Source: Nocardia sp. BSTN01 (lineage in GTDB: Bacteria; Actinomycetota; Actinomycetes; Mycobacteriales; Mycobacteriaceae). Taken from it: DNA of 64,000 bases. A program made the translations under genes and the position numbers. The stretch spans positions 62,001 through 126,000 of the forward strand of contig NZ_JADKYP010000006.1 in the NCBI RefSeq assembly GCF_015354405.1, read 5' to 3'. Positions 31,916 through 41,810 of this stretch are shown piece after piece. Each line of letters starts with the position of its first letter. Position 1 is the stretch's first letter. The notes under the pieces were generated by a model, which was not told the DNA's origin, made no database searches, and was given only the letters and a program-made list of their open reading frames with translations.

Positions 31916-32353
31916 CTACTGCGGCGGGGCGACTCCGTTGTCGTCGGACGCGGTGTTCTCGTCCTCGGACGGGGTGCGCGCGGTCTCGGTTGCTTCGAGC
32001 TTAGCGAGTGCATCCCGGAGTGCGGCAGCCTCGTCCTTTCCGACCTGTTCGACGAAGTGCACGAGCGCGGCGCGCCGGGAACCGACTTCGTCGGCCTGCT
32101 GCAGCGCGTCGACCATCAGACTGGCCACGAGTTCGTCGCGCGTGTGCACGGGCGCGTATCGATGTGCCCGGTCGTCGCGCTGCTGCACGACCAGATTCTT
32201 CTTCGCCAGCCGCTGTAGCACCGTCATCACCGTGGTGTACGCGAGCTCGCGGCGCGCGGCGAGGGCTTCGTGGACCTGCCGTACCGTCTGCGGTTCATCG
32301 GCCGACCACAACTGGTCCATGACCGCTTTCTCGAGTTCACCAAGACCTGCCAT
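31916..32353 (-). CDS. blaI: BlaI/MecI/CopY-family repressor
   Basis: 145 residues, equivalent to Rv1846c. The winged helix covers residues 5-75: LGELEKAVMDQLWSADEPQTVRQVHEALAARRELAYTTVMTVLQRLAKKNLV. The C-terminal dimerisation region holds DELVASLMVDALQQADEVGSRRAALVHFVEQV, where M56 proteases cleave family members. The last 20 residues are acidic. In Mtb this repressor controls beta-lactamase and ATP-synthase genes. It lies 63 bp upstream of the M56 gene on the same strand. No TACANNTGTA-type operator was confirmed upstream. Confidence 0.93.
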   Translation of the reverse strand: MAGLGELEKAVMDQLWSADEPQTVRQVHEALAARRELAYTTVMTVLQRLAKKNLVVQQRDDRAHRYAPVHTRDELVASLMVDALQQADEVGSRRAALVHFVEQVGKDEAAALRDALAKLEATETARTPSEDENTASDDNGVAPPQ

Positions 32354-35680: not shown

Positions 35681-35699
35681 TCTGGTAAGCCTAACCTAT
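35681..35699. promoter_or_regulatory. IdeR/DtxR iron box between the FecCD operon and the FhuF-like gene
   Basis: TCTGGTAAGCCTAACCTAT matches 15 of 19 positions of the IdeR/DtxR consensus TTAGGTTAGGCTAACCTAA, counting G or C at the centre. It lies in the 72-base divergent region and can control both directions. Confidence 0.85.
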
Positions 35700-35740: not shown

Positions 35741-36448
35741 ATGTCCGAACCAGTGACGATTTTCCCGGCTCGCCGTCTCGAGCCGGCGTTCGAACAGATC
35801 TGCGTCCGGCTGCGCGCGTTGCAGCCCGGTCATCCGCGGGTCTACGCCATGGCGGCGATGGCCGAACAGGGTCGCCGGCGCTGGTGGCGATTGGCCGAGG
35901 GGGTGCGCGAAGGTCGCATCGAGTTGATGTATCGCCGGCATGCCGCGGAGATGGTCAGCCCCGGGATCGCCGCCGAGGTGGTCGCCACCGCGCTGATCCA
36001 TGCCGTGGTCGGCCGGGTGGTCGCGCTGGCGGTCTGTGACAACCGGGCTTGGGATCCCGGGCTCGAGAATCTGTGGGTGCACACCGACAACGACGGCGGG
36101 CTGGACTGGGCGGGCCTGTCCGACACCACGATTCGCGTGGTGGCGGGTGATCCGCTGGCCGGGCGCCCGGGGGTGGTGACGCTGCCGTGCGATCGGGCGC
36201 TGTCGGTGTGGCTGGCCCATCGCTGCGAGGCGGCGCTGACGCTGGTGTGCGAAAGCCTGTACCGCTGTGCCGGGCTGAGCCGGGCGCGATTTTGGAATCT
36301 GGTGGGCGAATCCATCGTCGGCGCCGCCACTTACGTGCCGGAACTGGCGCGGACCGGCGCGGATGCCGGGACCGAGCGAGGGCAGGCGCTGCTGCTGGCG
36401 CTGGCCGATCGAGGGTTGCCGGTACGTCGCTCTTGCTTGGTTAGGTAA
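35741..36448 (+). CDS. FhuF-like siderophore-iron reductase lacking the C-terminal [2Fe-2S] motif
   Basis: 235 residues. The body resembles FhuF-type ferric-siderophore reductases: an N-terminal helical region, LCDNRAW-like CDNRAWDPGL, and near 190 the segment LSRARFWNLVGESIVGAA that in family members precedes the iron-sulfur domain. FhuF proteins normally end in RRSCC-L-Y-R...C-DC. Here the frame stops as RRSCLVR, so only the first cysteine of the motif remains. The stop codon lies in an iron box. GAGGGGG precedes the ATG. It is divergent from the siderophore importer and shares an iron box with it. The protein may be inactive as a reductase, or act as a binding protein. Confidence 0.7.
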   Translation: MSEPVTIFPARRLEPAFEQICVRLRALQPGHPRVYAMAAMAEQGRRRWWRLAEGVREGRIELMYRRHAAEMVSPGIAAEVVATALIHAVVGRVVALAVCDNRAWDPGLENLWVHTDNDGGLDWAGLSDTTIRVVAGDPLAGRPGVVTLPCDRALSVWLAHRCEAALTLVCESLYRCAGLSRARFWNLVGESIVGAATYVPELARTGADAGTERGQALLLALADRGLPVRRSCLVR

Positions 36449-36462
36449 GCCTGACCTACACT
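36433..36462 (+). promoter_or_regulatory. Orphan iron-regulated promoter (-35, IdeR box, -10)
   Basis: TTGCTT (36433-36438) and TACACT (36457-36462) are spaced by 18 bases. The gap contains TTAGGTAAGCCTGACCTAC (36441-36459), 16 of 19 matches to the IdeR consensus, better than the box upstream of the importer. The direction is plus, and no protein gene follows on that strand. Confidence 0.75.
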
Positions 36463-36468
36463 CAACTC

Positions 36469-36566
36469 GGCGTCCGGATCGAGCGAGAGTCCCGAGGGCT
36501 GCGGTCGACTCCCCGGTCCACTGCCCGCGGCGGGCCCTTCGTCAGGAAGGGTCCGCCGCGTCGTTT
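36469..36566 (+). ncRNA. Candidate iron-responsive small RNA (MrsI-like)
   Basis: A transcript from the orphan promoter would start near 36469 and end at the T-rich TCGTTT after the hairpin at 36526-36560, giving about 98 nt with no credible reading frame. An internal single-stranded-looking GACTCCCCGG (36507-36516) is complementary to GGGGAG-type ribosome binding sites. Mycobacteria encode an IdeR-controlled sRNA of similar size, MrsI (ncRv11846), beside Rv1846c. Here the candidate lies between the Rv1846c and Rv1847 homologues. Homology at sequence level was not tested. Confidence 0.6.
36526..36560 (+). terminator. Strong hairpin terminator of the candidate sRNA
   Basis: CGCGGCGGGCCCTTC (36526-36540) pairs with GAAGGGTCCGCCGCG (36546-36560), a 15-bp stem with one G-U pair and a 5-base loop GTCAG. 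TCGTTT follows. It also ends any read-through from the FhuF-like gene. Confidence 0.8.
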
Positions 36567-36621
36567 CCGAGGCGTCCACTCGCGGATCCCGATGTGCCGG
36601 TGCGTGTTTCGCAGACACGAC

Positions 36622-36662
36622 GATGCCCGGCCCACCGCCGGGATGGCGGCGAACCGGGCATC
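36622..36662 (-). terminator. Hairpin terminator after metY
   Basis: GATGCCCGG (36622-36630) pairs with CCGGGCATC (36654-36662), and an inner CCGCC/GGCGG stem strengthens it. It lies just beyond the metY stop codon (36671). Confidence 0.65.
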
Positions 36663-36670
36663 GGCGAGAA

Positions 36671-37996
36671 CTAGTGGGTGGCGGCGAAACCGGTCCGCAG
36701 GTCGGCGAGGATGTCCTCGATCCCCTCGATACCCACCGCGAGCCGGACCAGGCCCGGCGTCACACCCGCGGCCAGCTGCTCCTCGGGAGTCAACTGTGAA
36801 TGCGTGGTCGAGGCCGGGTGGATGACCAGCGAACGCACGTCGCCGATATTGGCGACATGGCTGTGCAGGGTCAGCGCGTCGACGAACCGCTTACCGGCGT
36901 CCACACCGCCCGCCAGCTCGAAGCCGACGATGGCGCCGGTGCCCTTCGGGGCCAGCTCGCGGCCGCGCTCGTACCACGGCGACGACGGCAGACCCGCGTA
37001 GAAGACGTTGGTCACCTCCGGCTGCTCGGTGAGGAATTCCGCGACCGCCTGCGCGTTCGAGACGTGCCGCTCCACCCGCAGGCTCAGCGTCTCGAGACCC
37101 TGGCTGATCAGGAACGCGTTGAACGGCGCCACCGCGGAGCCGAGGTCACGCAGCAACTGCACCCGCGCCTTCAGCGCGTAGGCCGGCGCCCCCAGATCGG
37201 CGAACACCGCGCCGTGGTAGCTGGGGTCGGGGGTGGTGAAGCCGGGGAAGCGCGAGTTGCCCTGTTCGTCGGTCACCGTCCAGTCGAAGGTGCCACCGTC
37301 GACGATCACGCCGGCGATCGCCGCACCGTGGCCGCCCAGGTACTTCGTCGCCGAGTGCACGACGATGTCGGCACCGTGCTTCAGCGGCTGGATCAGATAC
37401 GGGGTCGGCACGGTGTTGTCCACGATGAACGGCACACCGGCGGTGTGCGCGACCTCGGCCAGGCCCGGCAGGTCCAGGATGTGGTTCTGCGGGTTGGACA
37501 CCGTCTCGCCGTAGATCGCCTTGGTGTTCGGGCGGATCGCGGCGCGCCACTGATCCAGATCGTCGGGATCTTCGACGAACGACACCTCGATGCCCAGCTT
37601 CGGCAGCGTGTAGTGGAACAGGTTGTAGGTGCCGCCGTAGAGGCGCGGACTCGACACGATGTGGTCACCGGCGCCCGCGATGTTGAGGATCGCGAAGGTT
37701 TCGGCGGCCTGGCCCGAGGACAGCAGCAGCGCCGCCACACCACCCTCGAGGGCGGCGATGCGCTGCTCGACCGCGTCCTGGGTGGGGTTCATGATGCGGG
37801 TGTAGATGTTGCCGGGCTCGGCCAGACCGAACAGCGCCGCCGCGTGATCGGTGTCGCGGAAGGTGTAGGAGGTGGTCTGGTAGATCGGCAGCGCGCGAGC
37901 GTTGGTGGTGCCGTCGGGAATCTGGCCGACGTGGACCTGCTTGGTTTCGAAGCTCCAGTTCTGCGCCGGATCGTTCGGCTCGACGGAGTCGGTCAT
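36671..37996 (-). CDS. metY: O-acetylhomoserine sulfhydrylase (bifunctional O-acetylhomoserine/O-acetylserine type)
   Basis: 441 residues. A PLP enzyme forming homocysteine from O-acetylhomoserine and sulfide, the direct-sulfhydrylation route to methionine; Mtb calls its homologue metC (Rv3340). Cys/Met-metabolism family motifs are PIYQTTSYTFRDTDHAAALFGL near residue 42, YTRIMNPTQDAVEQRIAALEGG, YGGTYNLF and VHSATKYLGGHG with the PLP lysine near 215. The ATG at 37996 is preceded by TTGGAG; the frame extends to 38065 without a better signal. No metX or SAM riboswitch is adjacent in the window. Confidence 0.93.
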   Translation of the reverse strand: MTDSVEPNDPAQNWSFETKQVHVGQIPDGTTNARALPIYQTTSYTFRDTDHAAALFGLAEPGNIYTRIMNPTQDAVEQRIAALEGGVAALLLSSGQAAETFAILNIAGAGDHIVSSPRLYGGTYNLFHYTLPKLGIEVSFVEDPDDLDQWRAAIRPNTKAIYGETVSNPQNHILDLPGLAEVAHTAGVPFIVDNTVPTPYLIQPLKHGADIVVHSATKYLGGHGAAIAGVIVDGGTFDWTVTDEQGNSRFPGFTTPDPSYHGAVFADLGAPAYALKARVQLLRDLGSAVAPFNAFLISQGLETLSLRVERHVSNAQAVAEFLTEQPEVTNVFYAGLPSSPWYERGRELAPKGTGAIVGFELAGGVDAGKRFVDALTLHSHVANIGDVRSLVIHPASTTHSQLTPEEQLAAGVTPGLVRLAVGIEGIEDILADLRTGFAATH

Positions 37997-38843: not shown

Positions 38844-39302
38844 ATGACACAGCACGACCGATTCGAGGCTCGCTCCCTGGCGGATGTCACGCCCGAGCAG
38901 ATGACCCGCTACAGCGAGGGGACCTTCACCGACCTCATCGGTCTGAAGTACACCGAGGTCCGGCCCGATCGCGTGGTCGGGGAGTGGGTGGTCTCGCCGC
39001 AGCTGCATCAGCCGGCGGGCATCGTCAACGGCGGGGTGTACTGCACGATCATCGAAACCCTGGCCAGTGTCGGCGGCGGTGTCTGGTTCGGCGACCGCGG
39101 ACATGTGGTCGGCGTCAACAACAACACCGACTTCCTGCGCGCGGTCCGCGAGGGCAGTCTGCGCGGTGTCGCCACCCCGATTCACCAGGGCCGATCGCAG
39201 CAACTGTGGCAGGTGCAGATCACCGACGAGCAGGACCGGGTGGTCGCGCGCGGGCAGGTGCGGCTGCAGAACCTCACCGCGGACGGGGCGGCCAAGAGCT
39301 AG
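38844..39302 (+). CDS. PaaI-type hotdog thioesterase (Rv1847 homologue)
   Basis: 152 residues with the PaaI-like hotdog signature: [20 protein letters not shown], then [22 protein letters not shown], which holds the catalytic-region Asn-Gly-Gly, and [14 protein letters not shown]. The family cleaves acyl-CoA thioesters; the substrate is unknown. In Mtb this gene also directly precedes ureA. It starts a plus-strand run into the urease genes, with 94 bp before ureA. Confidence 0.92.
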
Positions 39303-40092: not shown

Positions 40093-41810
40093 CGGAACTG
40101 TCCCGCGCTCGTTACGCCACACTCTTCGGCCCCACGGTCGGGGATCGAATTCGCCTGGCCGACACCGATCTTCTGATCGAGATCACCGAAGACCGCTGCG
40201 GCGGACCCGGCCTGGCCGGTGACGAGGCCGTCTTCGGCGGCGGCAAGGTCCTGCGCGAATCGATGGGCCAAGCTCGTGCCACCCGCGCCGAGGGCACGCC
40301 GGACACCGTGATCACCGGGGCGGTGATCGTGGACTACTGGGGAATCATCAAGGCCGACATCGGCATTCGCGACGGCCGCATCTGCGGGATCGGCAAGGCC
40401 GGAAATCCGGAGACCATGGACGGCGTGCATCCGGATCTGGTGGTGGGCCCGTCGACGGAGATCATCGCCGGCAACGGCCGCATCCTCACCGCCGGCGCGA
40501 TCGACTGCCACGTCCACTTCATCTGCCCGCAGTTGCTCGACGAGGCGCTCGGCGGCGGTATCACCACCCTGATCGGCGGCGGAACCGGGCCGGCCGAGGG
40601 CTCCAAGGCCACCACGGTCACTCCCGGCGCGTGGCATCTGGGCCGCATGCTGGAGGCCACCGACGGCTGGCCGGTCAATATCCTGCTGCTCGGCAAGGGC
40701 AACACCGTGCGTCCCGAGGCGATGTGGGAGCAATTGCGCGGCGGCGCCGGCGGATTCAAGCTGCACGAGGACTGGGGGACCACCCCGGCAGCGATCGACG
40801 CCTGCCTGCGGGTGGCCGATGCCGCCGGAGTTCAGGTCGCGCTGCATTCCGATACGCTCAACGAGGCCGGATTCGTCGAGGACACTCTCGCCGCGATCGC
40901 CGGGCGGGCCATCCACTCGTATCACACCGAGGGCGCCGGCGGCGGGCACGCGCCGGACATCATCACCGTCGCCTCGCACCCGAATGTGATGCCCAGCTCG
41001 ACGAATCCGACCCGCCCGCACACGATCAACACTCTCGACGAACATCTGGACATGCTGATGGTGTGCCACCATCTCAATCCGGCCGTGCCCGAGGATCTCG
41101 CCTTCGCCGAGAGCCGGATCCGGCCCTCCACCATCGCCGCCGAGGATTTGTTGCACGATCTGGGCGCGATCTCGATGATCGGCTCCGATTCCCAGGCGAT
41201 GGGCCGCATCGGGGAAGTGGTGATGCGGACCTGGCAGACCGCGCACATGATGAAGGTCCGCCGCGGCGCGCTGCCCGGCGACGGGGCCGCCGACAATCAT
41301 CGGGTGCGTCGCTATATCGGGAAATACACGATCTGCCCGGCGGTGACACACGGTCTGGACCACGAGATCGGGTCGGTGGAAGTCGGCAAATTGGCCGATC
41401 TGGTGCTGTGGGAGCCGGCCTTTTTCGGTGTGCGCCCGCATGCGGTGCTCAAGGGTGGCGCCATCGCCTGGGCCGCGATGGGTGATGCCAACGCCTCGAT
41501 CCCGACTCCGCAGCCGGTGCTGCCGCGGCCGATGTTCGGCGCCGCGCCGGTGGTCGCGGCGGGGACGTCGCTGCATTTCGTCTCCCCGCAGGCCGTCGAG
41601 GACGGACTCGCCGAGCGGCTGCGGGTCCGGCGCACACTCGTCCCGGTGGCCGATGTGCGCCGCCGGACCAAGAGCGATCTGCCGCTCAATGACGCGATGC
41701 CGCGCATCGAGGTGGAACCCGACACCTTCACCGTGCGCATCGACGGCGAGGTGTGGGACCAGCAGCCGGCCGGCGAGCTGCCGATGGCGCAGCGCTACTT
41801 CCTGTTCTGA
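40089..41810 (+). CDS. ureC: Urease alpha (catalytic) subunit
   Basis: 573 residues, full length. The nickel ligands are in place: HVHF (H141, H143), the carbamylated lysine K224 in [36 protein letters not shown], and the aspartate of GSDSQAMG. The flap MVCHHL includes catalytic H327. Nickel loading requires UreF, UreG and UreD, which in this genome are 8.7 kb further on rather than adjacent. ureE is absent, as in mycobacteria. Confidence 0.98.

Follow-up and report, generated by a model that had tools for sequence, protein, structure and literature searches.

Does the interval between blaI and the Rv1847-type thioesterase gene in Nocardia encode a counterpart of MrsI, the iron-sparing small RNA of mycobacteria? 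The question arose from an earlier note, which had read a candidate MrsI homologue from the letters of one stretch of DNA; the window analyzed here is the whole of that stretch, 64,000 nucleotides from Nocardia sp. BSTN01. In the published accounts, MrsI (ncRv11846) is placed between blaI and Rv1847 (PMC8628891), in agreement with the neighbourhood that the earlier note gave for its name. It is described there as an RNA of about 100 nt with an IdeR box, a 6-8 nt seed, a 7-nt apical loop and bfrA as a target (PMC8628891, PMC11188477). Very probably, in our view, MrsI has its Nocardia orthologue in this element, which would be a trans-acting small RNA of about 98 nt under IdeR repression. The sequence evidence on locus, size, structure, the match between loop and bfrA leaders, and the conserved box and hairpin supports the candidate of the earlier note. 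Homology was established with the RNA at the same locus in one related genus (g29), and MrsI of M. tuberculosis was compared by its published description only.

The features of the locus are collected in Table 1. The 19-mer TTAGGTAAGCCTGACCTAC between the two promoter elements is identical at 16 of 19 positions to TTAGGTTAGSCTAACCTAA, which we take to be the IdeR box consensus. It is the sole site in the 64 kb with three or fewer mismatches, and 100 shuffles yielded none. The promoter hexamers, the box that fills the gap between them and the hairpin followed by TCGTTT had all been reported in the earlier note and were found again as described. Its claim of a transcript without a gene was borne out insofar as no convincing gene overlaps the transcribed region; the 3' end of the FhuF-like ORF, however, lies inside the promoter and box. 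This ORF ends in RRSCLVR, its last codons overlapping the sRNA promoter; FhuF proteins usually end in a C-terminal cysteine motif.

Table 1. Positions in the window of the predicted small RNA, its control elements and the neighbouring genes.
Feature	Position	Strand	Remarks
BlaI (Rv1846c-type), left syntenic anchor	31916..32353	-	Pfam Penicillinase_R; sole solved relative 2g9w, E 1.6e-56
FhuF-like gene	35741..36448	+	Weak match to Pfam FhuF (22 bits vs. cut-off 25.2); 3' end overlaps box
Promoter, 18-nt spacer	36433..36462	+	-35 TTGCTT 36433-36438, -10 TACACT 36457-36462; read from sequence
IdeR (iron) box, predicted	36441..36459	.	16/19; occupies -35/-10 spacer
Small RNA, ~98 nt	36469..36566	+	Start inferred from -10, end from hairpin
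5' stem-loop domain	36476..36519	+	Outer stem GGATCG/CGGTCC, inner stem GTCCCG/CGG..GAC
7-nt apical loop AGGGCTG, proposed seed	36495..36501	+	
Terminator-type hairpin and TCGTTT	36526..36566	+	Hairpin 36526-36560 (15 bp, 5-nt loop), TCGTTT 36561-36566
4HBT thioesterase (Rv1847-type), right syntenic anchor	38844..39302	+	Pfam; followed by ureABC

RNA starting at about 36469 was predicted to fold with a z-score of -2.54 (2 of 200 shuffles equally good), the predicted fold having an apical loop of 7 nt and a terminal hairpin of 15 bp. A generic E. coli-type scan of 36300-36700 detected no sigma-70 consensus promoter and no T-rich terminator, so both the promoter and the U-tract are weak by E. 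coli rules. At the gathering score no Rfam 15 family matched 36433-36566, and the window's two matches lay elsewhere. On the plus strand a glycine riboswitch (RF00504, 2537-2632) stands at the start of an ORF of 1023 aa. On the minus strand an 80-bit match to 5_ureB_sRNA (40251-40543) runs antisense to the gene for the urease alpha subunit; it may reflect conserved urease coding sequence, not a true antisense RNA. The metY-type gene converges on the small RNA, and the inverted repeat at 36621-36663 that separates them (CGATGCCCGG / CCGGGCATCG), the second at this locus, is probably the terminator of that gene.

The earlier note had placed the element between homologues of blaI and Rv1847. Both do flank it, but here they share the interval with further genes: an ABC/FecCD transporter, fhuF, a gene for a Cys/Met-metabolism PLP enzyme (metY as a working label) and osmC. 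The best solved relative of the window thioesterase is 3s4k ('Putative esterase Rv1847/MT1895', E 1.3e-37), and 2g9w, the relative of the window BlaI, is presumably Rv1846c. A second IdeR-like sequence, with four mismatches by eye, lies at 35681-35699, where the FecCD transporter gene and fhuF diverge, and the whole cluster is therefore probably iron-regulated.

Gene order was compared among the relatives. For g29, 33 loci (L107-L139) were used, made up of the 30 best matches and three from a further search. In every one blaI and fhuF lay upstream of the element and the thioesterase directly downstream, its match starting 76-185 nt past the core; ureA was present in 30. One g29 thioesterase that was checked matched 3s4k (Rv1847/MT1895, E 5.6e-50), and one BlaI matched 2g9w (E 1.7e-69). 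Because BlaI and thioesterase are closest to solved M. tuberculosis proteins, and from PE-family matches (17 and 24 in two genomes, some with stops), we infer that g29 is Mycobacterium. Across 30 Nocardia loci of about 3 kb, fhuF was upstream in 29 and blaI in 5, and the downstream gene was the thioesterase in 17 and metY in 13. The thioesterase lay 104-245 nt past the core in 15 of these loci and 1.2 kb past it in two more. Among 19 loci from other genera of the family (L061-L079), the thioesterase was downstream in 18, blaI upstream in 13 and fhuF upstream in 7.

The nearness of the thioesterase in g29 and in half of the Nocardia loci would suit a leader or attenuator acting in cis on the thioesterase and urease genes downstream. 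We find this hardly credible: in the window and its close relatives the next gene, metY, is encoded on the opposite strand, and the 3' end of the element is a strong hairpin.

The upstream side suggests another explanation. For most Nocardia copies about 40-65 nt separate the end of the fhuF match from the core, and fhuF transcripts could stop at the hairpin; the element might then be only a fhuF 3' untranslated region with its terminator, the box being fortuitous or decayed and no separate RNA being made. This is very unlikely given the other genera, where 12 of the 19 loci have no fhuF within about 4 kb upstream and yet keep box and core, blaI being the gene found upstream in most of the set. 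Moreover, a box matching at least 13 of 19 positions lay within 150 nt upstream in 134 of 136 unique copies carrying the core motif, vs. 14 of 311 random windows from the same loci, some of which may themselves be genuine boxes. The two copies without such a box were L141 and L142. Conservation of the loop and stems also far exceeds the needs of a terminator.

That conservation was assessed in two sets. When loci were taken by their coordinates and not by motif, the loop AGGGCTG was present in 151 of 154, these being best-scoring loci with some genomes represented twice. The three loci lacking it were two degraded ones from small genomes (L140 and L144) and a chance-level match (L143). In two Nocardia loci (L054 and L060) the loop was kept and the stem beneath it rebuilt as CGG/CCG. 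The second set, for covariation, comprised 57 different 5' domains. They were selected with a core motif in which part of the inner stem and loop is prescribed, so that loop invariance in this set is partly built in. Of 60 distinct sequences, two trimmed one base short and one without the 3' arm were dropped; three copies missed by the extraction pattern and the degraded L140, L142, L144 and L154 are also left out.

In these 57 domains 99.7% of cells pair, and sliding the partners cuts pairing to 18-53%. Cells changed on both sides numbered 46 and the covariation score was 0.179; shuffles gave 18.2 and 0.102, and none of 500 attained either observed value. There was no excess of pairs changed on both sides (2 vs. 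1.6 shuffled) or of further pair types (7 vs. 8.0). The two covarying pairs are both U-A/C-G, one in the outer stem and one adjoining the loop-closing pair; the latter may be a single event, since the change splits Nocardia from the rest. Comparison of 29 Nocardia copies showed eight pairs of the terminal hairpin with both partners changed. The 5' domain varies in length by single bases, which argues against coding. The earlier note had suggested scanning other Nocardia for the box together with the hairpin: in the relatives, the two are conserved together.

By DNA similarity the element was found in 145 of 149 Nocardia genomes, many of the matches spanning about 36432-36535. Within the family, a covariance model built from the 29 Nocardia copies (R1) matched 284 of 401 genomes, representing 21 of 31 genera. 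A second model built from 50 copies across genera (R2) matched 336 of 396 g29 genomes. In an order-level sample under strict filters, R2 matched 35 of 249 genomes, all 35 within the window's own family. Sixty of the 396 g29 genomes had no R2 match; ten of them were searched again, yielding nothing in four (E up to 10), a chance-level match in three and a degraded or cut-off copy in three.

Several single loci deserve mention. One genome (G130) carries two copies about 17 kb apart (C64:172017-172108 and 189025-189115), 84% and 80% identical to the window. L020 has a long G run in the terminator's place after the core, most likely a sequencing or assembly artefact. In L142, L144 and L154, from two genomes of about 3.3 Mb (G559 and G591), and in L140, from one of 3.1 Mb (G781), a box-like sequence and an altered core persist. 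The terminal hairpin is absent in the two 3.3-Mb genomes, and blaI but not fhuF is present at L142, L144 and L154. The RNA looks to have decayed in these four copies from reduced genomes.

Within the conserved RNA, two segments came into question as the part that pairs with targets. The earlier note had proposed that ACTCCCC pairs with ribosome binding sites; the sequence is indeed present (36508-36514), but the loop GGGCUG is the likelier seed. The complement of GGGCUG (36496-36501) is CAGCCC. Of 49 unique bfrA leaders from outside Nocardia, 24 have it within the last 60 nt before the gene (14 of 24 in g29, 10 of 25 elsewhere), and it is missing from the other 25. The 29 other arrangements of the same letters occurred in 2.34 leaders on average, and the next best, CCAGCC (14), overlaps CAGCCC. 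Three of 62 leaders had been dropped as duplicates, and ferritin loci without the ELTAINQY signature were left out. At two sites the predicted loop duplexes reach 8-9 pairs. ACTCCCC was set aside as the main seed, its ACT being variable while its C-run, on the 3' side of the inner stem, is nearly invariant.

A nearly invariant C-run is also what would be expected of an iron-responsive RNA that is no relative of MrsI, sits at the same locus by coincidence and acts mainly through this C-rich run on Shine-Dalgarno sequences, as is reported for FsrA (PMC9410917). We regard such an RNA as extremely improbable, for the gene neighbours, box, size and 7-nt loop are those described for MrsI and the enrichment of CAGCCC at bfrA points to the loop. 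The orthologue of MrsI is likewise favoured by what the two RNAs have in common, namely a position of the blaI/Rv1847 type, the IdeR box, a length of about 100 nt, a 3' hairpin and an apical loop of 7 nt. A further common point, seen in several genera besides g29 and in g29 itself, is a bfrA gene preceded by the loop complement. The two RNAs differ in that the pair adjoining the loop-closing pair is C-G in most Nocardia copies and U-A in other genera, in the fhuF, transporter and metY/osmC genes nearby in this species, and at bfrA itself. CAGCCC was found in none of ten Nocardia bfrA leaders, several of which look leaderless, and from these sequences bfrA appears not to be an MrsI target in Nocardia. 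Since bfrA is a target published for mycobacteria, the loss of this one target need not mean that the RNA falls outside MrsI.

A pattern search of 12 Nocardia genomes pointed to a candidate target elsewhere. In all 12, CAGCCC is present at the sufR-sufB junction, starting 44 nt before sufB. SufB was confirmed by TIGR01980 (720 bits vs. a cut-off of 346), and the ORF upstream of it is SufR-like (65.5 bits, under the curated cut-off of 178.8). The site lies in the variable tail of this ORF, as the codons CAG CCC. Among 22 conserved proline columns of the SufR-like and SufB ORFs, its proline alone is fixed as CCC, a codon that makes up 103 of the 357 proline codons counted there. Apart from the hexamers of the ribosome-site hairpin block, CAGCCC and AGCCCG, which overlap, are the only ones that all 12 genomes share within the 107 nt before sufB. 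The family was picked for having CAGCCC, and chance coincidence among thousands of genes is possible. The search as a whole gave 151 sites vs. 94 for the reversed pattern, which is no matched control for a ribosome site; the patterns covered neither other ribosome sites nor GTG starts. Catalase-, ferredoxin-, peroxiredoxin- and NDH-2-like genes had the site in one to three of the 12 genomes, among the matches listed. In the window's own genome the pattern CAGCCCT-GGA-ATG gave 27 sites vs. 31 reversed, with no genome-wide excess and no obvious iron genes. On these comparisons, the sufR-sufB junction ranks first as a candidate MrsI target in Nocardia.

The mechanism that we propose would run as follows. 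With iron plentiful, Fe-IdeR would occupy the box between -35 and -10, as the position of the box suggests, and block transcription. As iron falls, the structured RNA would be transcribed and ended by the 3' hairpin, and the conserved stem would hold out the 7-nt loop AGGGCUG. Iron-related mRNAs that carry CAGCCC around their translation start could then pair with the GGGCUG of the loop, and the pairing would lower or reshape their expression.

For sufR-sufB, simple repression would be odd, since the M. tuberculosis suf operon is induced under iron limitation according to two papers (PMC10270350, PMC6034842). By analogy, uncoupling of SufR from SufB, as RyhB does for IscR, would fit better. 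RyhB of Escherichia coli is likewise an iron-starvation sRNA; within iscRSUA its reported pairing site lies ahead of iscS, and iscR is spared (PMC5040110), a layout that resembles the proposed sufR-sufB site. The two RNAs share no common locus, and the regulator is Fur for RyhB and IdeR here. A further source describes RyhB as Hfq-dependent and M. tuberculosis as lacking Hfq (PMC9410917). It presents FsrA of Bacillus and IsrR of Staphylococcus as Gram-positive iron-sparing sRNAs, with neither synteny nor sequence in common with MrsI or RyhB. We offer it as a tentative proposal, possible but short of probable, that Nocardia MrsI has left bfrA for the sufR-sufB junction, where its loop would pair with CAGCCC and separate SufR expression from that of Fe-S assembly.

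In the open-licence literature, outside which most subscription papers lie, we found no report of MrsI beyond the mycobacteria. What is new here is the family-wide range, the nearly invariant loop with its match at bfrA, and a possible, testable target switch to sufR-sufB. If the switch is true, MrsI would have converged at sufR-sufB on the kind of role that RyhB has on iscRSUA, and the loss of the bfrA site together with the conserved sufR-sufB site would show cleanly how an sRNA can exchange targets and keep its seed. With homologues in Nocardia, in Gordonia and in the majority of the family's sampled genera, MrsI would be an old iron-response RNA, and its nearly invariant seed loop should make targets predictable by cross-species comparison.
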